The notes below the pieces were generated by a model, which saw nothing but the letters and a program-made list of their open reading frames with translations, ran no database searches and was not told the DNA's origin. Below are positions 54,038-64,000 of a DNA stretch of 64,000 bases, in pieces (the first letter of the stretch is position 1; every line of letters begins with the position of its first letter). Made by a program: the position numbers and the translations under genes. Where the stretch lies: assembly GCF_018122625.2 (NCBI RefSeq), contig NZ_JAGQFT020000004.1, forward strand, positions 1-64,000, written 5' to 3'. Source of the stretch: Coralloluteibacterium stylophorae. GTDB taxonomy: Bacteria; Pseudomonadota; Gammaproteobacteria; Xanthomonadales; Xanthomonadaceae.

Positions 54038-57000
54038 TTGAGCAGCGGTTCGGAGCGGGCAGACCGCGATGCGCGGGCGGTATCCGGGCGCCTGCGCGCA
54101 TGGTGCGCCGGCGTCCTGTGCGTGCTGCTGTCGTTGCTGCCGGGCCCCGGGCAGGCGCTGGACCCGGGGCGCCACGTCGCCCAGTTCCACCACACCGCCT
54201 GGACGGTCGCCGACGGCGCCCCGGGGCAGGTCACTGCGCTGGCGCAGACCGCCGACGGCTACCTCTGGCTCGGCACCCAGTTCGGCCTGTTCCGCTTCGA
54301 CGGGGTCGAGTTCGAACGTGTAGCGCCGACGGGTGCCGACGCCTTCCCCGCGGCGAGCATCTCGGCCCTGCATGCAAGCGCGGATGGCGGTCTCTGGATC
54401 GGCTTCCGCTACGGCGCGGTGAGCGTTCTCCGGGACGGCGCGGCCACCCATTACGGCGAGGCCGAGGGCCTGCCGAGCAGCACCGTCTTCCGCTTCGCCC
54501 AGGACCGCGAGGGCCGGCTGTGGGCGGCCACCTTCACCGGCCTGGTCTACCTGCGCGACGGGCGCTGGCATCGGCTCGGGCCGGAGTGGGCGTTCCCAGG
54601 GCGGCAGGCGCGAACCGCGTTCGTCGACGCCGCCGGCACGCTGTGGGTGGCGACCGATCAGGGCCTCGCCTTCCTGCGCCGGGGCACGACGCGTTTCCAG
54701 CGCGTACCGGCTGCGGTCGGGCGGGTCAGCGGCATCGCGCAGGCGCCGGACGGCGGGATCTGGATCGCCGAGGCCGACGGCGCGGTGCGCGAGGTGTCCA
54801 TCGATGGCCGCACCGTCGCCACGCCGTCCATCGCGCTGCCCTCGGCCGGCCTCCTGTTCGACCGCGACGGTGCGCTGTGGGCGACCACGCTCGGCGAAGG
54901 CCTGCTGCGGCTGCCGCATCCTGCCGCCGCCGACGCCGGCTTCGAGCGCTTCCGCCGGATCGACGGACTCGGCTCGGACTACCTGCAGCCGCTGCTCGAG
55001 GACCACGAGGGCACGATCTGGGTCGGCAGCAGCCGCGGGCTGGACCGCTTCCGGCACGCCAACGTGGTGCCGGCCCGGCTGCCCGACGGCGCGCAGGATT
55101 TCGCCATCGTTGCGGACGGCGACGGTGCGCTGCTGGTCGGCAGCCGCAACCAGCCGCTGATGCGCCTGCAGGACCGCGAGCTCGACTTCCTCGACCTGGC
55201 GGTACCGCTGACCGCCGGCCATCGCGACCGCCGGAACACGGTATGGCTCGGCGGCCCCGACGGGTTGTGGACGCTGCGGGACGGCCACCTCGCCGAGACC
55301 CTGCCCCTGCCCCTCGACGACTACTCCGGCGTGCAGGCGATCGCCACATGCGGCGACGGCACGCTGTGGGTGTCGCTGAACACGCCGGGCGTCTACCGTC
55401 TCGCCGACGGCCGCTGGAGCCACCTCGCCGACCTGCCGGGCATGCCCGAGGGCTCCTCGCCGCTGAGCCTGCTGTGCGATGCGCGGGACCGGCTGTGGAT
55501 GGGTTTCGCACGCAACGCGATCCTGCTCCTGCAGGACGGACGCCCGACGCCGATCGGCGCCGAGCAGGGGCTGGAGGTCGGCAACGTCAGCGCCCTGGCC
55601 GAGGACGCGACGGGCATGTGGGTCGGTGGCGACCGCGGGCTCGCGCGGGTCGAGGACGGCAGGGTACGCAGCGCGCACGGTGGCGACGCCTTCAGCGGCA
55701 TCTCGGGCATCGTCGCCACACCGGGAGGCGACCTCTGGCTCAACGGCGCGCGCGGCATCCTGCACCTGCCGGCGGCGGAGCGCCCATACCTGTTCGATGC
55801 GCAGGGACGCAGGCCCGCCTACGCCCGGTTCGACTTCCTCGACGGCGTGCCGGGCATCCCCGCGCAGTTCCGCCCGATCCCCACCGCCGCGCGCACCGGC
55901 GACGGCAGGCTGTGGTTCGCCACCACCAGCGGCGTGGTCTCGATCGACCCGGGCGCGCTGCGGCGCAACCCGGTGCCGCCGCCGGTGCACGTGCGCGCGG
56001 TGCAGGCCGACGGCCGCAGCTATCCGGCCGGCCGCGACGCGCTGCAGCTGCCGGCTGGCATCCAGAACCTGCAGATCGCCTACACCGCGCTGAGCCTGGC
56101 CATCCCCGAACGGGTGCGCTTCCGCTACCTGCTGGAGGGCTACGACCGCGAATGGCAGGACGCCGGCACGCGGCGCGTGGCCTTCTACAACGACCCCGGC
56201 CCGGGCAGCTACACCTTCCGCGTCATCGCCGCCAACAACGACGGGGTGTGGAACGAGGTCGGCGCCGGACTGCCGCTGGTGATCGCCCCGCTCTACTGGC
56301 AGACGGCCTGGTTCCGGGTGCTGTGCGCGCTGCTGGCGCTGGCCCTGCTGTGGATCGCCTACCTGTCGCGGCTGCGCCGCGTCGCCGCGCAGGTCCGGGT
56401 GCGCATGCAGGAGCGCCACATGGAGCGCGAGCGCATCGCGCGCGAACTGCACGACACCCTGCTGCAGGGCATGCACGGCCTCATCCTGCGCCTGCACGCC
56501 GCCGCGCAGCGCCTGCGCGCGGACGATCCGCTGCGCGACGAGCTCGAGACGACCATGGACCTGGCCGAGCAGGCGATGGCCGAGGGACGCGACCGAGTCA
56601 GCGGCCTGCGCGGCGGCGTCCGCCACGGCCGCGACCTCGGCGAGGCCCTGCTGCAGGTCGCGGAGGAGGCGGGATGGCAGCCGCCGCCCGAGGTGCGCCT
56701 GGTCGTGGAGGGAACGCCGCGCGCGCTGTGCGGGGGCGTCGCCGAGGAGCTCTACCTGATCGGGCGCGAGGCGGTCCTGAACGCGCTGCGGCACGCGCGC
56801 GCCGGCATGGTGACGATCGAACTGGGCTATGCGCGGCGCGAGCTGCGCCTGCGCGTGCGCGACGACGGCATCGGCATGCCTGTGCGCGAACCGGGCCGGC
56901 CGGGACACTGGGGCCTGGACGGCATGCGCGAACGGGCCGCGCGCATCGGCGGGCAGCTGCGCCTGGACTCGCAGCCGGGTGCGGGCACGACCGTCGCCGT

Positions 57001-57085
57001 CCGTCTCCCGGCCGCCGCGGCCTACCGCCCGCGCCGGCGCGGCCTGCGTGCGGCCGTCGCAGGCCTGCTGCGACGGCGCACGTGA
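54038..57085 (+). CDS. Hybrid-free sensor histidine kinase with propeller sensor domain
   Basis: The 1015-residue kinase has a signal/anchor segment and then two seven-bladed reg_prop propellers (about 45-640; repeated 'DGxLWxGTxxGL' units such as DGYLWLGTQFGLFRFDG). A Y_Y_Y domain follows (about 660-750, LEGYDREWQDAGTRRVAFYNDPGPGSYTFRVIA). A membrane helix (about 757-778) leads to a HisKA_3 dimerisation domain with the phospho-acceptor His805 in RELHDTLLQG, and then the ATPase domain (DDGIGMPVREPG...GLDGMRERAARIGG). This is the NarL-partner class, yet no response-regulator gene is nearby, so it is an orphan here. The start is TTG 54038 with AAGGGGAG upstream. Confidence 0.92.
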   Translation: MSSGSERADRDARAVSGRLRAWCAGVLCVLLSLLPGPGQALDPGRHVAQFHHTAWTVADGAPGQVTALAQTADGYLWLGTQFGLFRFDGVEFERVAPTGADAFPAASISALHASADGGLWIGFRYGAVSVLRDGAATHYGEAEGLPSSTVFRFAQDREGRLWAATFTGLVYLRDGRWHRLGPEWAFPGRQARTAFVDAAGTLWVATDQGLAFLRRGTTRFQRVPAAVGRVSGIAQAPDGGIWIAEADGAVREVSIDGRTVATPSIALPSAGLLFDRDGALWATTLGEGLLRLPHPAAADAGFERFRRIDGLGSDYLQPLLEDHEGTIWVGSSRGLDRFRHANVVPARLPDGAQDFAIVADGDGALLVGSRNQPLMRLQDRELDFLDLAVPLTAGHRDRRNTVWLGGPDGLWTLRDGHLAETLPLPLDDYSGVQAIATCGDGTLWVSLNTPGVYRLADGRWSHLADLPGMPEGSSPLSLLCDARDRLWMGFARNAILLLQDGRPTPIGAEQGLEVGNVSALAEDATGMWVGGDRGLARVEDGRVRSAHGGDAFSGISGIVATPGGDLWLNGARGILHLPAAERPYLFDAQGRRPAYARFDFLDGVPGIPAQFRPIPTAARTGDGRLWFATTSGVVSIDPGALRRNPVPPPVHVRAVQADGRSYPAGRDALQLPAGIQNLQIAYTALSLAIPERVRFRYLLEGYDREWQDAGTRRVAFYNDPGPGSYTFRVIAANNDGVWNEVGAGLPLVIAPLYWQTAWFRVLCALLALALLWIAYLSRLRRVAAQVRVRMQERHMERERIARELHDTLLQGMHGLILRLHAAAQRLRADDPLRDELETTMDLAEQAMAEGRDRVSGLRGGVRHGRDLGEALLQVAEEAGWQPPPEVRLVVEGTPRALCGGVAEELYLIGREAVLNALRHARAGMVTIELGYARRELRLRVRDDGIGMPVREPGRPGHWGLDGMRERAARIGGQLRLDSQPGAGTTVAVRLPAAAAYRPRRRGLRAAVAGLLRRRT

Positions 57086-57155
57086 CGACGGGCGGCCACC
57101 ATCGCACCGGCGGAACGGTCGAACATGGGAACGGGAATCCGGAGGCCGACCCGGC

Positions 57156-57705
57156 ATGCCCAGGTCGTCTGCGACCATCCGCTTCGAGGCCACGCTGCAG
57201 CGCCCGGCGGCGCCGAAGGGCGCGACCTGGTGCTTCCTCGTGCTGCCTGCGGAGGCCAGCGCCAGGCTGCCGACGCGCAGCATGGCGAGCGTCGACGGCA
57301 GCCTCTGCGGTCAGCCATTCCAGGCTACGCTCGAGCCCGACGGCCGGGGCAGCCACTGGCTCAAGGTGCCGCGCGCGCTGCGCGAGGCCGCCGGTGTGGC
57401 GGCGGGCGATACCGTCGCGCTCGCGATCGCGCCGGCCGCGCAGGAACCCAAGCCGCCGCGTGCCGGCCGACCTGCGCCGGGCGCTGGCGGCGGCGCCGGC
57501 CGCACGCACGCAGTGGGCGAGCCTGACCCCGGCGGCGCGACGCGACTGGACCCACTGGATCGCCTCCGGGAAGAAGGCGGAGACCCGGGGCAGGCGCATC
57601 GCCACCGCCTGCGACATGCTCGCCTCCAGCAAGCGCCGCGCCTGCTGCTTCGACCGCTCGGGCATCTACAGCAAGGTGCTGGCGGCACCCGAGGCGGCAG
57701 GCTGA
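57156..57705 (+). pseudogene. DUF1905 / YdeI-OmpD-associated protein with a frameshift
   Basis: The first frame (ATG 57156, GGAGG upstream) gives a DUF1905-like beta domain: IRFEATLQRPAAPKGATWCFLVLPA, SVDGSLCGQPFQATLEPDGRGSHWLKVPRALREAAGVAAGDTV. Near 57450 the sense passes to another frame (VPADLRRALAAAPAARTQWASLTPAARRDWTHWI...KKAETRGRRIATACDMLA), the C-terminal YdeI-type helical region. One extra base, or two missing, around 57447-57458 explains the shift. With the correction the protein would be about 180 residues. As with the hydrolase at 25.8 kb, this could be real decay or a sequencing error. Confidence 0.8.
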
Positions 57706-57772
57706 AGGATCGGGCACCGGCGCAGCCCCGACCCCTGTGTCGTGGCTCGAGCGGACGTCGCCAAGATGCAGC

Positions 57773-58414
57773 TCACCAGCGCAGGGCCCGCGGCCCGAGC
57801 AGGGCACCCAGCGCACTGGGCACGAGCATGCCCAGCAGGTACCAGGTCGACCAGAACGGCGGCGCCATCTCCGGGCAGTGCAGGCAGTAGGCGAAGGCGG
57901 CCGTGGCACCGGCCAGGAGCCCGGCCGCGGCGCCGGCCAGACGCAGGCGCACCGGCGCCATGCCCCGCACCGCCCAGAGGATGGCGGCCAACGCCGGCAG
58001 CGACAGCATCGCAATGAGCGCCGAGCAGACCTTCCAGGTCTGTCCGAGCAGCAGCGGCATGCGCGCCTCCGACGGCGCGTCCAGCAGCACCAGGGCCGCG
58101 CCGATCCAGGCTGCGGCGACGGGGACGGCGAGCATCGTCCAGCCGCCCGCCACCCGCACCCCTGGGCGCGACAGCCGCAGGGTCACCCACAGCGCGGCCG
58201 CGCCGACCGCGATGATGAAAGCCTGGCGCAGCCAGAACGCCGGCAGCCGGGCGACATCCCCGAGATCGGAGCGCACGCCGAGCAGCAGCGCCACCAGGAC
58301 CGTCGCCGACACCACCCCCAGCAGCAGGGCCAGAGAGAACCTGCGGGTGGGAACGTGGCGGTCGACCGCCGCGGTTCCACCTGCGAGCACCTGGATGAGG
58401 TCGTCGGTCTTCAT
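57773..58414 (-). CDS. nrsF: NrsF-type membrane anti-sigma factor (DUF1109)
   Basis: The 213-residue, six-helix inner-membrane protein matches NrsF, the anti-sigma factor of Caulobacter sigma-F. It sequesters the sigma factor at the membrane and releases it on metal stress. The C-terminal CLHCPEMAPPFW segment supplies the conserved cysteine pair implicated in sensing. Its ATG overlaps the TGA of the sigma-factor gene (ATGA), the normal order for such pairs. It converges with the frameshifted DUF1905 gene. Confidence 0.9.
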   Translation of the reverse strand: MKTDDLIQVLAGGTAAVDRHVPTRRFSLALLLGVVSATVLVALLLGVRSDLGDVARLPAFWLRQAFIIAVGAAALWVTLRLSRPGVRVAGGWTMLAVPVAAAWIGAALVLLDAPSEARMPLLLGQTWKVCSALIAMLSLPALAAILWAVRGMAPVRLRLAGAAAGLLAGATAAFAYCLHCPEMAPPFWSTWYLLGMLVPSALGALLGPRALRW

Positions 58415-58995
58415 GCACTGCCTCGGATGCGGGCCGCGAGCGCCTTCAGGCCGCGGTGGATGCCGACCTTCACCGCCGATTCCGACAGCCCGCTGTGCCG
58501 CGCCGCCTCGGCGATGGACAGGCCGTCCAGCTTGACCAGGAGGATCGGCAGGCGGTGGCGGTCCGGCAGCGTGTCGAGCAATTCTCCCACGTCGCGCCGG
58601 GCCTCGGCGGGCTCGACATCCGACCTGGCGAAGATGCGGCCGTCGTCGTCGAGCGGATCGTGCAGCGCCTCGCGTCGCGCGTGGGCACGGAAGAAGTCCA
58701 TGAGCTTGTAGCGGGCGATCGCGTGCACCCAGGCGGTCAGCGGCTGGTCCTGGCGCCAGGTGTGCCGCGCGTTGTGCACGGCCAGCAGGGTTTCCTGCAG
58801 GACGTCCTCGACGTCCGCCTGCGCACGGGGCAGCCGCCGCCGCAGGTAGGCGCGCAGGTGCGCCGCGAGGCGATCGAGGAAGCGCCGGTACTGCGCGGCG
58901 TCGCCGGCCAGGGCGAGGACCATGCAGGCGTGCAGCTCGCGTTCGACCGCGTGCGCATCGTCGGCCGCGGACGCTTGCGCGGGCAGTCCGCCCAT
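58411..58995 (-). CDS. sigF: ECF RNA polymerase sigma factor of the bufferin locus (SigF-like)
   Basis: This 194-residue ECF sigma factor has region 2 (YLRRRLPRAQADVEDVLQETLLAVHNARHTWRQDQPLTAWVHAIARYKLMDFFRAHAR) and region 4 (LLDTLPDRHRLPILLVKLDGLSIAEAARHSGLSESAVKVGIHRGLKALA). ATG 58995 is used. GTG 59046 with an AGG-rich box upstream would add 17 residues and is possible. The gene is preceded by a TGTAACC-N16-CGAA promoter (59187-59161) identical to those before both bufA genes, so it should activate itself and both bufferin operons. Confidence 0.9.
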   Translation of the reverse strand: MGGLPAQASAADDAHAVERELHACMVLALAGDAAQYRRFLDRLAAHLRAYLRRRLPRAQADVEDVLQETLLAVHNARHTWRQDQPLTAWVHAIARYKLMDFFRAHARREALHDPLDDDGRIFARSDVEPAEARRDVGELLDTLPDRHRLPILLVKLDGLSIAEAARHSGLSESAVKVGIHRGLKALAARIRGSA

Positions 58996-59160
58996 CAGTG
59001 CGATTCCGTTCCGCCGGACGCGGGTCGCGCCGGGTGATGTCGACACATCGGTTCCACCTCGCTCCGCCGGGCATGAGGCGGGCGCGAGTGTAGGCCGGCT
59101 GCGCCGGCCGGCCGCGGTGCGCACTCGCGCCTGCATGTCCAGGACGTCCATGCCGCCTTG

Positions 59161-59187
59161 TTCGTCCGGGGGCGGCCCTCGGTTACA
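59161..59187 (-). promoter_or_regulatory. SigF-type promoter upstream of sigF-nrsF
   Basis: On the minus strand TGTAACC (59187-59181), a 16-nt spacer and CGAA (59164-59161) match the -35/-10 pattern of both bufA promoters exactly. It lies back to back with the bufA1 promoter and implies autoregulation of the sigma operon. Confidence 0.88.
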
Positions 59188-59210
59188 GCCGTTGGCGACG
59201 GCAAGCGCGC

Positions 59211-59237
59211 TGTAACCGGCAGCGGCCGCGCGGCGAA
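59211..59237 (+). promoter_or_regulatory. SigF-type promoter of bufA1
   Basis: TGTAACC (59211-59217), 16 nt, CGAA (59234-59237), ending 51 nt before the bufA1 ATG. The box sequence and spacing are identical to the sigF and bufA2 promoters in this window. Confidence 0.9.
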
Positions 59238-59288
59238 CTGCTCCAGCGAAGCCGGGCATCCCGTCCGGCGCCACCGGGAGCATCCTCC

Positions 59289-59570
59289 ATGAAGCATCGC
59301 CGCATCGCCCCCCTCGCCCTCACCCTCGCCGCACTGGCGGCCGGCGTCGCCCACGGCCAGGACGCGGGCAACGACAGGAAGCCCGCCGTCGAGAAGTGCT
59401 GGGGCGTCGCCAAGGCCGGCGAGAACGACTGCGCCGCCGGCCCCGGCACCACCTGCGCCGGCACCGCCAAGGCCGACTACCAGAAGAACGCGTGGAAGAA
59501 CGTCCCGGCCGGGACGTGCACCAGCATCGTGACCCCGCACGGCCGCGGCTCGCTGACCGAGCCCGCCTGA
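59289..59570 (+). CDS. bufA1: Bufferin-family precursor BufA1 (DUF2282)
   Basis: This 93-residue RiPP precursor has an N-terminal Sec-like signal ([16 protein letters not shown]). The Cys-rich core has four cysteines (37, 48, 56, 77) in the DUF2282 pattern [17 protein letters not shown]...[12 protein letters not shown]...WKNVPAGTC. In studied bufferins the cysteines are modified by BufB and BufC and the product binds copper in the periplasm. GGAG lies six bases before the ATG. It is followed directly by bufB1. Confidence 0.93.
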
Positions 59571-59575
59571 GCGTC

Positions 59576-60412
59576 ATGGCGAGCGCGCCCGCCGCCGGCA
59601 TCGGCTTCAAGCCACAGCACGCCGACGACGCCCTGCGCTGCAGGGCCGAGGCGCTGTGGCTCGAGGTCCACCCGGAGAACTACCTGGTGGACGGCGGGCC
59701 CCGCCTGGCCCTGCTCGATGCGCTGGCGGCGCGCTTTCCGCTCTCGCTGCACGGCGTGTCGCTGTCGCTGGCGGCCGCCGCGCCGCCCGATGCGACGCAC
59801 CTGGCGCGCCTCAGGCGCCTGATCGATCGCGTGCAGCCGGTACTGGTGTCCGAACACCTGGCCTGGTCGTCCTGGGACGGACGCCACCTGCCGGACCTGC
59901 TGCCCTTCCCGCGGAGCCACGAGGCGCTCGCGCGCGTAGTGGCGAACGTGTCGCGCACGCAGGACGTCCTCGGCCGCCGGATCGCGCTGGAGAACCCGGC
60001 GCACTACCTGCCCCTGGACGGCCACGACTGGAGCGAGACCGACTTCCTGGCCGAGCTCGTGCGCCGTAGCGGTTGCGGGCTGCTGCTCGACATCAACAAC
60101 GTCCTCGTCAGCGCGCACAACCTCGGCGGCGACGCGCGCCGCTACGTCGACGCCTTCCCTCTGGAGGCGGTGACCGAGATCCATCTCGCCGGCCACACGG
60201 TCGACGCCGGGCTCGGCGACGCGCTGTGGATCGACTCGCACGATGCCGCGGTGTCGGAGGAGGCCTGGGCGCTCTACCGTCATGCGATCGCGCGCGGGGG
60301 ACCGCGGCCCACCCTGATCGAACGCGACGGCAACGTGCCCGCGTTCGCCGTCCTGCTGGCCGAGCGCGAGCGGGCGCAGCGGCTGCTGGCCGCGCAGGCG
60401 ATCGCGGCATGA
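59576..60412 (+). CDS. bufB1: BufB1: multinuclear non-heme iron oxidative enzyme (DUF692)
   Basis: The 278-residue TIM-barrel enzyme of the MbnB/BufB family oxidatively modifies precursor cysteines. Metal-ligand motifs visible are LEVHPENYLV, LHGVSLSL, VSEHLAW, ALENPAHYL, LLLDINNVLVSAHN, EIHLAGH and WIDSHDAAV. The ATG is 5 nt after bufA1, and the stop overlaps bufC1 by ATGA. Confidence 0.93.
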   Translation: MASAPAAGIGFKPQHADDALRCRAEALWLEVHPENYLVDGGPRLALLDALAARFPLSLHGVSLSLAAAAPPDATHLARLRRLIDRVQPVLVSEHLAWSSWDGRHLPDLLPFPRSHEALARVVANVSRTQDVLGRRIALENPAHYLPLDGHDWSETDFLAELVRRSGCGLLLDINNVLVSAHNLGGDARRYVDAFPLEAVTEIHLAGHTVDAGLGDALWIDSHDAAVSEEAWALYRHAIARGGPRPTLIERDGNVPAFAVLLAERERAQRLLAAQAIAA

Positions 60413-61143
60413 GCGCGCTCGCCCGGTTCCAGCGGAACTTCGCCGAAGCGCTCGGCAACGCATCCCCGGACAGCGGGCCGACGCGGCACCGGGCGTTCGC
60501 CGTGTATCGCAACACGGTGATGCGCGGCTGCCTGGATGCGCTGGAAGCCAACTATCCCGCGATCGTCTGCCTGGTCGGGCGCGACTGGTTCCGTGCCGCC
60601 GCGGCCGAGTACGCGACGGCACGACCGCCGCGCGATGGACGGCTGTTCGGGTACGGCGAGGACTTCGCCTCGTTCCTGTCGCGCTTCGAACCGGCGCGCG
60701 ACCTGACCTACCTCGCCGACGTGGCGCGGCTCGATCGGCTGTGGACCGAGAGCCTGGTCGCCGCCGACGGCGGCACGCTGGACGCGGCCGCGCTGCGCGG
60801 CCTGTCCCCGCGGCGCCTGGCCAGGCTGCGCCTGCGCCTGCATCCGGCCACGCGCCTCTTCGCCTCGGCGCTGCCGGCCTTCTCGATCTGGAAGGCCAGT
60901 CGCGCCGGCCTGTCCCCCGCCGGCGATCTCGCCTGGCAGGCCGAGCACGCGCTGGTGGCACGGGTGGGGCCCGAGGTACGCGTCGCGGCGGTGTCGACAC
61001 CGGCGCTGCACTTCCTCGACGCCTGCGCGCGCGGAGACACGCTTGCCGAGGCGGCCGAAGCGGCATGCGGGCAGTCCGCGGACGCGCGTGTCGACCTCAT
61101 CCTCGCCGCCCTCCTGGGCGCTGGCGCATTCACCACGACCTGA
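60409..61143 (+). CDS. bufC1: BufC1: RiPP-recognition partner (DUF2063)
   Basis: The 244-residue protein has the DUF2063 N-terminal putative DNA-binding-like/leader-recognition domain (RFQRNFAEAL...RHRAFAVYRNTVMRGCLDALEANYPAIVCLVGRDWFRAAAAEYA). In MbnC/BufC-like partners it helps present the precursor to the iron enzyme. ATGA overlap with bufB1 shows translational coupling. Confidence 0.92.
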   Translation: MSALARFQRNFAEALGNASPDSGPTRHRAFAVYRNTVMRGCLDALEANYPAIVCLVGRDWFRAAAAEYATARPPRDGRLFGYGEDFASFLSRFEPARDLTYLADVARLDRLWTESLVAADGGTLDAAALRGLSPRRLARLRLRLHPATRLFASALPAFSIWKASRAGLSPAGDLAWQAEHALVARVGPEVRVAAVSTPALHFLDACARGDTLAEAAEAACGQSADARVDLILAALLGAGAFTTT

Positions 61144-61153
61144 AGGAGTCCTC

Positions 61154-61624
61154 ATGACACCCACCGCCCCCGTGCACGCCGCCCGCGCCACGCTCCGCTC
61201 GCGCTGGAACGCGCTGGCCGAACGCGCCACCGGACTGCTGGGCCACTCGTTCCTGGCCCTGGTCGGACGGGTCGCCATCGCCGCGATCTTCTTCCAGTCC
61301 GGGCGGACCAAGGTCGATGGGCTGCTGACCGTGACCGAAGGCAGCTACGAGCTGTTCCGCAGCGAATACGCGCTGCCGCTGCTGGCGCCGGAGACAGCGG
61401 CGCACCTGGCCGTCTATGCGGAAACCTTCCTGCCGATCGCGCTCGTCCTCGGCCTCGCCACGCGCCTGTCCGCGTTCGCGCTGCTGGGCATGACCGCGGT
61501 GATCGAGATCTTCGTCTATCCCGCGGCCTGGCCTACCCATCTGTCGTGGGCCGCGATCCTGCTGTACCTGATCGCCCGCGGCGGCGGCCGCGTGGCGCTC
61601 GATCACGCGCTCGGCCTGCGCTGA
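61154..61624 (+). CDS. DoxX-family membrane protein in the buf operon
   Basis: The 156-residue, four-helix protein of the DoxX family (LVGRVAIAAIFFQSGRTKVDG, FLPIALVLGLATRLSAFALLGMTAVIE) often closes bufferin operons, where it is thought to sit in the membrane with a redox role. GAAGGAG before ATG 61154 is the ribosome binding site; the gap from bufC1 is 10 bp. Confidence 0.9.
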   Translation: MTPTAPVHAARATLRSRWNALAERATGLLGHSFLALVGRVAIAAIFFQSGRTKVDGLLTVTEGSYELFRSEYALPLLAPETAAHLAVYAETFLPIALVLGLATRLSAFALLGMTAVIEIFVYPAAWPTHLSWAAILLYLIARGGGRVALDHALGLR

Positions 61625-61656
61625 ACGCGCCTTCGCCCCGATCCCCTCCGCCCGGC

Positions 61657-61683
61657 TGTAACCGCAGCACCCGTGGCCGCGAA
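61657..61683 (+). promoter_or_regulatory. SigF-type promoter of bufA2
   Basis: TGTAACC (61657-61663), 16 nt, CGAA (61680-61683), 50 nt before the bufA2 ATG. It is identical in boxes and spacing to the sigF and bufA1 promoters, so the second bufferin operon can be expressed independently of the first. Confidence 0.9.
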
Positions 61684-61732
61684 TGACTCCGTGCCATTCC
61701 GGCACCCCCTCATACGAAGGAACCCCATCGCC

Positions 61733-62002
61733 ATGCTCACTGCGACCCAAAGCCTCGCCACCGCCGCCGCCGTCTTCGCCGTCTCGGCCGCCGCCGTCTC
61801 CGCTCCCGCGCAGGCCGCCGAGGAAGCGACCGGCCGGACCGTGCACTGCTACGGCATCAACAGCTGCAAGGGCACCTCCGACTGCAAGTCGGGCAATCAC
61901 GAATGCAAGGGCCAGAACGAATGCAAGGGCCAGGGCTTCAAGGCCGTGACCCTGCAGCAGTGCGAGGCCGAGGGCGGCAGCACCACCGCACCGGCCGCCT
62001 GA
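61733..62002 (+). CDS. bufA2: Bufferin-family precursor BufA2
   Basis: The 89-residue precursor has a signal-like N-terminus (ATAAAVFAVSAAAVSAPAQAA). Its core has six cysteines (39, 45, 51, 58, 64, 77), mostly in CKG repeats (NSCKGTSDCKSGNHECKGQNECKGQG). This BufA2-type core differs from BufA1. ATG 61733 has GAAGGA upstream; a GTG at 61673 would lie before the promoter and is excluded. Confidence 0.93.
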   Translation: MLTATQSLATAAAVFAVSAAAVSAPAQAAEEATGRTVHCYGINSCKGTSDCKSGNHECKGQNECKGQGFKAVTLQQCEAEGGSTTAPAA

Positions 62003-62055
62003 GCCTTCCCCGCCCGGCCGCAGCGGCGGCCGGGCCCTTCGCAGCCTTGCCCCGC

Positions 62056-62898
62056 ATGACCGTCACCGCACCCACGCCCTTCCACGGCTTCGGCCTGGGC
62101 CTGCGCCCACCCCACTACGCCGCGGCGATCGAGGCGCAGCAGCCGCTGGATTTCGTGGAGGTCATCTCGGAAAACTTCATGGTCGATGGCGGGCGGCCGC
62201 TGCACGTGCTCGACCGCGTGCGGGCGCGGTACGAGGTGGCCCTGCACGGCGTATCGATGAACCTCGGTTCCGCCGACGAGGTGGACGCGGGCTACCTGCG
62301 CCGCCTGCGCGCGCTTGCCGACCGCATCGACCCGCTGTGGGTGTCGGACCATGTCTCCTGGACCGGCGTCGACGGCCGCACGTCGCACGACCTCCTGCCG
62401 CTGCCCTACACGGAGGAGGCGCTCGACGCCCTGGCCAGGAACGTCGGCATCGCCCAGGACGTGCTGGGACGCGCCCTGGTCCTGGAGAACCCCTCCACCT
62501 ACGTCGCCTTCCCCGGCGCGACGCTGACGGAGCCGGCCTTCCTCGCGGCTCTCTGCGAGCGCAGCGGCTGCCAGCTGCTGCTGGACGTGAACAACATCGT
62601 GGTCAGCGCGGGCAACCATGGCCACGATCCCGGGAACTGGCTCGACCAGCTGCCCCTGCGCCACGTGCGGCAGATCCACCTGGCCGGCCACAGTCGCGGC
62701 GCGGACATCCTGGTGGACACGCACGATGCGCCCGTGCCCGATCCGGTGTGGGCGCTGTACGCGAGGTTCATGCCGCGCCTCGGCGACGTCGCCACCATGA
62801 TCGAGCGCGACGACCACATCCCGCCGCTGCGCGAACTCCTCGCGGAACTCGACCGCGCCCGCGCCATTGCAGCCGCTGCCGGTCGTCGCGCCGCATGA
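62056..62898 (+). CDS. bufB2: BufB2: multinuclear non-heme iron oxidative enzyme (DUF692)
   Basis: The 280-residue paralogue of BufB1 has FVEVISENFMV, LHGVSMNLG, VSDHVSW, VLENPSTYV, LLLDVNNIVVSAGN, QIHLAGH and LVDTHDAPV. The active-site frame is conserved in both copies, so both are expected to be active. It follows bufA2 by 53 bp. Confidence 0.93.
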   Translation: MTVTAPTPFHGFGLGLRPPHYAAAIEAQQPLDFVEVISENFMVDGGRPLHVLDRVRARYEVALHGVSMNLGSADEVDAGYLRRLRALADRIDPLWVSDHVSWTGVDGRTSHDLLPLPYTEEALDALARNVGIAQDVLGRALVLENPSTYVAFPGATLTEPAFLAALCERSGCQLLLDVNNIVVSAGNHGHDPGNWLDQLPLRHVRQIHLAGHSRGADILVDTHDAPVPDPVWALYARFMPRLGDVATMIERDDHIPPLRELLAELDRARAIAAAAGRRAA

Positions 62899-63638
62899 GG
62901 CTGCAGGATCTGCAGCGCAGCTTCCTTGCGGCGCTGGATGGCGCCCCCCTGCCACAGGGCATCGCCGCCCGCGGCCTGCGCGTGCATGCCAACAACCGTC
63001 GGGAACGACTGTCCGAGGCCCTGCGCGACACCTACGCCAGGACCGCACTCATGCTCGGCGACGCGGATTTCGCGCGCCACGCCGGGAGCTACATCGCCGC
63101 GCATGCGCCGGCATCCTGGACGCTCTCGGACTACGGGGCGGGCTTTCCGGACCACCTCGATGCGGCCTTGCCGGGCGAGCCGGTGGTCGCGGAGCTGGCC
63201 TGGCTCGACGCCGGCCTCCGCCGCGCCTTCGCCGGACGCGACGCGACGCCGCTGCAGCTCGACCGGCTGGCCGCCGAGGACTGGGAGACCGTCGGATTCG
63301 CGTTCCTGCCGACGCTGGGCTTCACCCGCCTGCGCAGCAACGCACCAGCGATCTGGAGCGCGCTCGCCGCAGGCCGTCCGGTTCCACCCGCCGCGCGGCT
63401 GCCGACGGGATCGGGCGTGCGGATCTGGCGCGCCGGTCTCGATCCGCGCTTCGCCACCATGTCGCCACGGGAGTGCGCCTGCCTCGACCTCGCGCTCGCA
63501 GGCGCGAGCTTCGGCGAGATCTGCCAGTGGCTGGACCGGCAGCTGGAGGTCGACGACGCCGCGCGCGAGGCCGGGCTCCTGCTGCGCACGTGGGTCGACG
63601 ACGGACTGGTCGTAGCGCTGCGCGAGGGCGATGCGTGA
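62895..63638 (+). CDS. bufC2: BufC2: RiPP-recognition partner (DUF2063)
   Basis: The 247-residue protein has the DUF2063 domain (LQDLQRSFLAAL...RGLRVHANNRRERLSEALRDTYARTALMLGDADFARHAGSYI) and a divergent C-terminal half. It overlaps bufB2 by ATGA. No DoxX gene follows, unlike in the first operon. Confidence 0.9.
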   Translation: MRLQDLQRSFLAALDGAPLPQGIAARGLRVHANNRRERLSEALRDTYARTALMLGDADFARHAGSYIAAHAPASWTLSDYGAGFPDHLDAALPGEPVVAELAWLDAGLRRAFAGRDATPLQLDRLAAEDWETVGFAFLPTLGFTRLRSNAPAIWSALAAGRPVPPAARLPTGSGVRIWRAGLDPRFATMSPRECACLDLALAGASFGEICQWLDRQLEVDDAAREAGLLLRTWVDDGLVVALREGDA

Positions 63639-63703
63639 TACGCGCTGGGCGGCGCGGACGGCGTGCGCCCGCGCCACCGGCATCCGCGTCCCAGGCGACG
63701 TGG

Positions 63704-64000
63704 TCAGGCCGCCTCGGCGGCCCAGGCCTCGGCATCGGCACCCGCCGGGATGCGCATCGGGCAGGACGGGTCGGTGGCTGCGCGCCACACCGCCTCGGCC
63801 ACGTCGCGGGCGTGGGTGATCGTGCTGTCCTGCTGCATGCTGGCGATGAAGGACCGGGCGAAGTCGGCGTAGGCCTCGTGCTCGAGTCCGGCCATGTTGC
63901 CGCGGGCGTTGTCGACGAAGCGGGTGTCGGGCGCGCGGCCGGGCAGCACCAGGCGCGCGCGCACGCCAAAGGGCGCCATTTCCGCGGCCAGCGACTCGGT
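63704..64000 (-). CDS. SDR-family oxidoreductase, C-terminal part (runs off the window)
   Basis: The visible 98 codons end a classical SDR: APFGVRARLVLPGRAPDTRF (the PG motif after the active site) and DVAEAVWRAATDPSCPMRIPAGADAEAW. The active-site half lies beyond 64000. It converges with bufC2 and is not part of the bufferin operon. Confidence 0.85.
   Translation of the reverse strand, partial: TESLAAEMAPFGVRARLVLPGRAPDTRFVDNARGNMAGLEHEAYADFARSFIASMQQDSTITHARDVAEAVWRAATDPSCPMRIPAGADAEAWAAEAA

Follow-up and report, generated by a model that had tools for sequence, protein, structure and literature searches.

Gene content and organization of the locus

A divergent gene cluster lies near the end of the analysed stretch of the Coralloluteibacterium stylophorae genome (contig NZ_JAGQFT020000004.1, positions 1 to 64,000; this whole stretch of 64,000 nucleotides is called the window hereafter). 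It is composed of a minus-strand unit, sigF (58995-58411) and nrsF (58414-57773), which overlap by 4 nt, and of two plus-strand units, bufA1-MNIO-DUF2063-DoxX (59289-61624) followed by bufA2-MNIO-DUF2063 (61733-63638). The genes and the predicted promoters are the following:

57773..58414, minus strand: nrsF, membrane anti-sigma factor with Cys130, Cys180 and Cys177 (PF06532, E 3.3e-70; two invariant Cys)
58411..58995, minus strand: sigF, ECF sigma factor, 194 aa from ATG 58995 (PF04542, PF08281; NF009188 290 bits vs cut-off 250; adjoins nrsF)
59161..59187, minus strand: predicted ECF16-type promoter of sigF-nrsF (exact match; counterpart sites before sigF in relatives)
59211..59237, plus strand: predicted ECF16-type promoter of the bufA1 operon (exact match; about 50 nt from the box end to the bufA1 ATG)
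59289..59570, plus strand: bufA1, Buf1/DUF2282 bufferin precursor, 4 Cys (PF10048, E 2.6e-24)
59576..60412, plus strand: bufB1, MNIO bufferin maturase (PF05114; NF050167 above cut-off)
60409..61143, plus strand: bufC1, DUF2063 partner protein (PF09836)
61154..61624, plus strand: DoxX-family membrane protein (PF07681; HvfX-family model under its cut-off)
61657..61683, plus strand: predicted ECF16-type promoter of the bufA2 operon, in the doxX-bufA2 gap (exact match; about 50 nt from the box end to the bufA2 ATG)
61733..62002, plus strand: bufA2, Buf2 bufferin precursor, 6 Cys (NF050166 106 bits vs cut-off 60)
62056..62898, plus strand: bufB2, MNIO bufferin maturase (PF05114; NF050167 above cut-off)
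62895..63638, plus strand: bufC2, DUF2063 partner protein (PF09836)

SigF harbors only the sigma-70 regions 2 and 4 and its gene adjoins an anti-sigma gene, as in ECF16. The anti-sigma factor matches PF06532 (DUF1109/NrsF) with 236.5 bits for a cut-off of 26.8, and falls under the cut-off of the narrower NCBIfam equivalog NF042994 (152 vs 300). Two cysteines are invariant across 16 aligned NrsF sequences, and Cys130 and Cys180 of the window protein match this conserved pair (C131 and C181 in Caulobacter). Residues 177-180, around the conserved sensor cysteine, read C-L-H-C, an arrangement common in relatives, others having a single cysteine. CxxC was considered as a copper-specific mark and rejected, as it shows no link to bufferin neighbours (28/42 for CxxC vs 25/35 for the others, odds ratio 0.8, the CxxC frequencies being biased by a locus search pattern that favours C-L-H-C).

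On the plus strand, the Buf1 and Buf2 precursors are each accompanied in the same operon by an MNIO and a DUF2063 gene, as in bufferin clusters, and the cysteine counts of BufA1 (four) and BufA2 (six) agree with Buf1 and Buf2 as described in PMC12452194. The neighbouring genes on the other side of nrsF code for a large two-component regulator-propeller histidine kinase (54038-57085; Reg_prop, Y_Y_Y, HisKA_3) and a DUF1905 protein (57156-57704), and nothing was found in these two genes that points to membership of the regulon. A search of 57000-64000 with Rfam gave no match.

Predicted promoter sites and search for further targets

The motif TGTAACC-N16-CGAA occurs at three exact sites, 59187-59161 on the minus strand and 59211-59237 and 61657-61683 on the plus strand. 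The first-pass annotation had placed these boxes, with exactly 16 nt between them, before sigF, bufA1 and bufA2; a letter-level check of the window agrees on boxes and spacing, and coordinates together with family searches agree on the gene order. The first two sites are divergent and jointly cover 77 bp (59161-59237), also as annotated, whereas the description of the promoters as identical holds for the boxes and not for the 16-nt spacers, whose sequences differ among the three sites. The expectation for the exact motif from shuffling was 0.00, none of 100 window shuffles reaching three sites or yielding even one. In the whole genome (4,002,885 bases) the exact motif is present three times, always before this one cluster, and the reversed control pattern is absent. 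The resemblance to the Caulobacter sigma-F motif, noted in the annotation, is correct: the SigF binding sequence GTAACC-N16-CGAA was reported there with transcription starts from 5' RACE (PMC3511200), and for ECF group 16 the proposed promoter is quoted as tGTAACc-N16-CGAA (PMC3420878).

The scan for additional targets that had been suggested along with the motif was carried out over the genome and gave no exact site beyond the three. Relaxing the pattern to GTAACC-N15-17-CGWA yielded six matches (three of them extra, with 17-nt spacers) vs eight for the reversed control, so that only the three exact sites stand above background. Allowing up to two mismatches yielded 183 sites vs 123 for the reversed control, and such weak sites are thus indistinguishable from noise. 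Six one-mismatch sites were inspected for surrounding open frames, two of them base by base. The site C3:133068-133094 was discarded as a target, since it lies antisense within a reading frame that we take to be ribosomal protein S11, recognised by the C-terminus of the protein rather than by a family search. The site at C2:81556 was also discarded: it looks intergenic, but its -10 box lacks the C. Finally, msrP, which with MsrPQ is described as a frequent but not a defining target in relatives, was rejected as a fourth target here, the single Oxidored_molyb gene of the genome having no upstream site with up to three mismatches.

Among 198 genomes of the family, the exact motif is present in 44 and an NrsF over the cut-off in 26, a patchy distribution of NrsF that suggests repeated loss or transfer. 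One and the same sequence accounts for fifteen of the exact matches, and in the window genome it corresponds to the C3:133068-133094 site in the presumed S11 gene. This recurrent match is a false-positive trap in genome-wide motif scans.

Conservation of the promoters in NrsF loci of relatives

The 400 nt upstream of cluster genes were compared in the window and in a sample of at least 67 NrsF-bearing loci taken from named genomes, leaving out precursor matches shorter than 120 nt, NrsF matches shorter than 500 nt, genes whose upstream sequence fell short of 250 nt and sigF genes not adjacent to nrsF. A strict motif (GTAACC-N16-CGAA) and a loose motif (GTAAC-N17-CG[AT]) were used; the latter had been extended to CG[AT] after the relative L061 and before the bufA2 upstream regions were viewed, and CG[AT] also fits a published Bradyrhizobium variant. 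Among the matches listed, the loose motif precedes nrsF-adjacent sigF in 50/60 cases, bufA1 in 38/42 and bufA2 in 12/12, the last covering layouts where bufA2 follows nrsF or is unlinked to it, and the strict motif precedes them in 33/60, 25/42 and 8/12. The reversed loose control gave 4/60, 1/42 and 0/12 for the same matches. A one-base-rotated strict control was found 5, 8 and 3 times, respectively, among the matches listed, partly because this pattern overlaps real sites whose following bases fit. Before the other genes of the cluster, again among the matches listed, the loose motif is present in 1/45 cases for BufC, 3/46 for DoxX, 7/46 for MNIO and 9/75 for NrsF, some of them because the gene heads an operon or follows a missed precursor. 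When GTAACC and CGAA pairs 8-26 nt apart are considered, the spacer is 16 in 67 of the 73 pairs among the matches listed; a T precedes GTAACC in 78 of 100 listed sites, the core columns being invariant by the selection of the motif.

The same layout as in the window is found in Luteibacter jiangsuensis (L149, NZ_JAUSSK010000004.1), which has three matching units with the strict motif before each and an NrsF that is 64% identical; its intergenic DNA, however, resembles that of the window only loosely. Several Sphingomonas loci (e.g. L185, L194 and L204) carry bufA2-MNIO-DUF2063 directly after nrsF with its own motif. In sphingomonad-type loci (L181, L185, L187, L189, L190, L192, L194, L195 and L204) the divergent operon shows DoxX, mostly together with bufA1, with no MNIO or DUF2063 detected in it. 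In these same loci, where the contig reaches, MNIO-DUF2063 accompanies or follows bufA2 on the downstream side of nrsF, suggesting that bufA1 and bufA2 of sphingomonads share a maturase.

Association between NrsF and the bufA2 promoter

Of 398 genomes sampled from the same phylum (Pseudomonadota level), 62 had any BufA2 match and 26 a match above the NCBIfam cut-off. Each of these 26 genomes was represented by its best BufA2 place, with 10 other over-cut-off copies and all below-cut-off matches left out. NrsF was found in 12 of the 26 genomes in a re-search where every candidate was scored. GTAAC-N16-18-CG[AT] precedes the best bufA2 in all 12 genomes with NrsF vs none of the 14 others, with the same result at 250, 300 and 400 nt (Fisher p 1e-7; by genus 7/7 vs 0/9, p 9e-5). 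The strict motif separates the two groups less sharply (6/12 vs 0/14, p 0.004). At 300 nt, the controls were found in the 12 NrsF genomes and the 14 others, respectively, 0 and 1 times for the reversed pattern, 4 and 1 for the swapped, 2 and 1 for shorter spacing, and 0 and 1 for longer spacing. Of the 12 bufA2 genes, six are linked to nrsF at a distance of up to about 3.5 kb, and each of these carries the strict motif. The other six, separated from nrsF by more than 600 kb or placed on a different contig, match the loose motif alone, which makes the association weaker for unlinked genes, these being drawn from three genera.

Taken with the survey of NrsF loci, where the motif precedes homologues of sigF, bufA1 and bufA2 in many relatives, this tracking of NrsF by the bufA2 motif supports the initial prediction of one sigma factor driving itself and both bufferin operons. 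A published survey found sigma/anti-sigma genes in Buf1 but not in Buf2 clusters, a picture qualified by the Luteibacter and Sphingomonas loci, so that the link of ECF16 with Buf2 represents a modest addition. We found no description of SigF control of Buf2 by name, a weak negative given the poor coverage of subscription journals in the literature searched. The association provides a testable rule, in which bufA2 is expected to have an ECF16 promoter if the genome contains NrsF, and ties Buf2 to a regulator whose genes the survey had placed with Buf1 only. ECF16 SigF-NrsF could be the standard switch of Buf2 as well as Buf1 across Pseudomonadota, a generalization for which we see about equal chances of holding and failing. 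Under it, genomes with NrsF would have an ECF16 promoter on the Buf2 operon even far from sigF, those without NrsF would control it otherwise, and a single sigma factor of sphingomonads may bring about joint expression of a Buf1 peptide without a maturase in its own operon and the neighbouring Buf2 MNIO.

Comparison with characterized ECF16 systems

A closely similar system is that of Caulobacter (sigF-nrsF, CC3254-3257, CC2907-2905 and CC2748), where sigF-nrsF is likewise divergent from a DUF2282-MNIO-DUF2063-DoxX operon, another operon of bufferin type exists and the promoters are again GTAACC-N16-CGAA (PMC3511200, PMC8224329). There, SigF controls DUF2282-DUF692-DUF2063-DoxX and a second DUF2282-DUF692-DUF2063 operon, the negative regulator being NrsF with two cysteines (PMC3511200). 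Copper induces this regulon, and sensitivity to copper was shown for a sigF mutant (PMC8224329). The Caulobacter system differs by the location of its second operon, which is not linked to sigF, and by having msrPQ among its targets, whereas in the window both bufferin operons adjoin sigF and msrP is devoid of the motif. The BufA2 model NF050166 had no match in the Caulobacter control genome, in contrast with PMC12452194, according to which C. vibrioides has a Buf2.

In Sinorhizobium meliloti, the ECF16 pair RpoE7-EcfR7 is encoded by a sigma/anti-sigma operon divergent from a four-gene operon with DUF692 and DUF2063; both divergent promoters were mapped (PMC6180224). No Buf2 operon or inducing signal was found in the available text of PMC6180224, and the RpoE7 reporters did not answer to the H2O2, cadmium and chromate tried, indicating that the signal may differ among lineages. 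Bradyrhizobium EcfF-OsrA and Brucella BcrS-AbcS are also ECF16 pairs with two conserved cysteines and related promoters, but they respond to oxidants or HOCl, and the targets described for them are methionine sulfoxide reductase genes rather than bufferins (PMC3420878, PMC8315932).

Regulatory model and alternative explanations

The locus very probably encodes an ECF16 SigF-NrsF pair with a compact local regulon made of both bufferin operons, a system for which the motif, the divergent layout and the bufferin-type targets have been described in Caulobacter, Sinorhizobium and Bradyrhizobium (PMC3511200, PMC6180224, PMC3420878). It is a new example of a known switch and not a new type of system, since both motif and circuit are already published for relatives. 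It adds another genome to those with the published copper-responsive sigma regulon, here as a self-contained 5.9-kb cluster, the modest additions being the gathering of Buf1 and Buf2 operons, and not msrP, in a compact regulon at a single locus, and the association of NrsF with the bufA2 promoter.

The boxes, gene families, conservation and NrsF co-occurrence are directly established, and by analogy with the relatives the switch would work as follows. At rest, the membrane protein NrsF would hold SigF; periplasmic copper or a thiol-oxidising stress would alter NrsF via Cys180, with Cys130, and free SigF. SigF-RNA polymerase could then act on the three TGTAACC-N16-CGAA promoters and transcribe its own operon, bufA1-B1-C1-doxX and bufA2-B2-C2. 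Activation of its own operon would provide positive feedback, with extra NrsF as a brake; such self-activation is suggested by evidence for ecfF autoregulation in Bradyrhizobium (PMC3420878) and by rpoE7 of S. meliloti, which appears self-activating (PMC6180224), and is weak in Caulobacter under dichromate (PMC3511200). Both MNIO enzymes presumably convert cysteines of the secreted BufA peptides to thiooxazoles for periplasmic copper chelation, this modification and copper binding being known for Caulobacter Buf1 (PMC12452194).

Metal is the probable signal. ECF16 members elsewhere answer to oxidants or HOCl, and the main rival retains the SigF-NrsF circuit and its promoters and replaces metal with oxidative or chlorine stress (H2O2, singlet oxygen, HOCl), the bufferins then belonging to a thiol/oxidant response. 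EcfF-OsrA and BcrS-AbcS respond to H2O2/singlet oxygen and HOCl (PMC3420878, PMC8315932), and the C-x-x-C (177, 180) of the NrsF sensor could form a disulfide switch. However, the targets here are only bufferin operons, the sole msrP-type gene having no motif, and it is the regulon with bufferin targets, that of Caulobacter, that is copper-induced (PMC8224329), CC3255 being raised at most twofold by peroxides, paraquat and diamide (PMC3511200). We consider an oxidant signal rather unlikely.

It is still less likely that the bufA2 promoter is redundant, bufA2-B2-C2 being transcribed mostly by readthrough from the bufA1 operon, and that a different promoter keeps sigF constitutively on. Between doxX and bufA2 there are just 108 nt, with no intrinsic terminator found in them, and autoregulation of sigF in Caulobacter is not strong under dichromate (PMC3511200), but the third box is exact and all 12 listed bufA2 genes have the motif, including those after nrsF or unlinked. 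A scan of 58900-62100 found neither intrinsic terminators nor sigma-70-like promoters from which sigF could be constitutive, although promoters of GC-rich organisms may escape such a scan. As for chance or coding-sequence matches devoid of promoter function, exact matches do arise in more family genomes (44/198) than have NrsF (26/198), 15 of them sharing the sequence that corresponds to the presumed S11 site of the window genome. This explanation is nevertheless strongly contradicted and hardly credible for the window, where all three genome copies precede one cluster and their position, strand and spacer are kept in relatives. The local ECF16 regulon thus remains the preferred reading.

Start and leader of sigF

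The most plausible sigF start codon, ATG 58995, is some 165 bp downstream of the predicted promoter. A 290-aa open reading frame from 59283 begins upstream of the promoter, and its first codon is unlikely to be the gene start. The leader (58996-59160) is long, about 160 nt, in the window and in Luteibacter. An uninterrupted reading frame runs through it in the window, and one is also present in Luteibacter past the promoter, although the residues are not alike by eye. Judging from the open frame, the leader may possibly encode an N-terminal extension of SigF (start 59151, almost leaderless) or a leader peptide. In many Burkholderiales, unlike the window and Luteibacter, the sigF promoter is near the beginning of the sigF match. 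Finally, at least two nearby NrsF genes, in some cases with only one full sigF, are present in the loci L153, L154, L161, L162, L165, L167, L169, L171 and L179, mostly from Burkholderiales.
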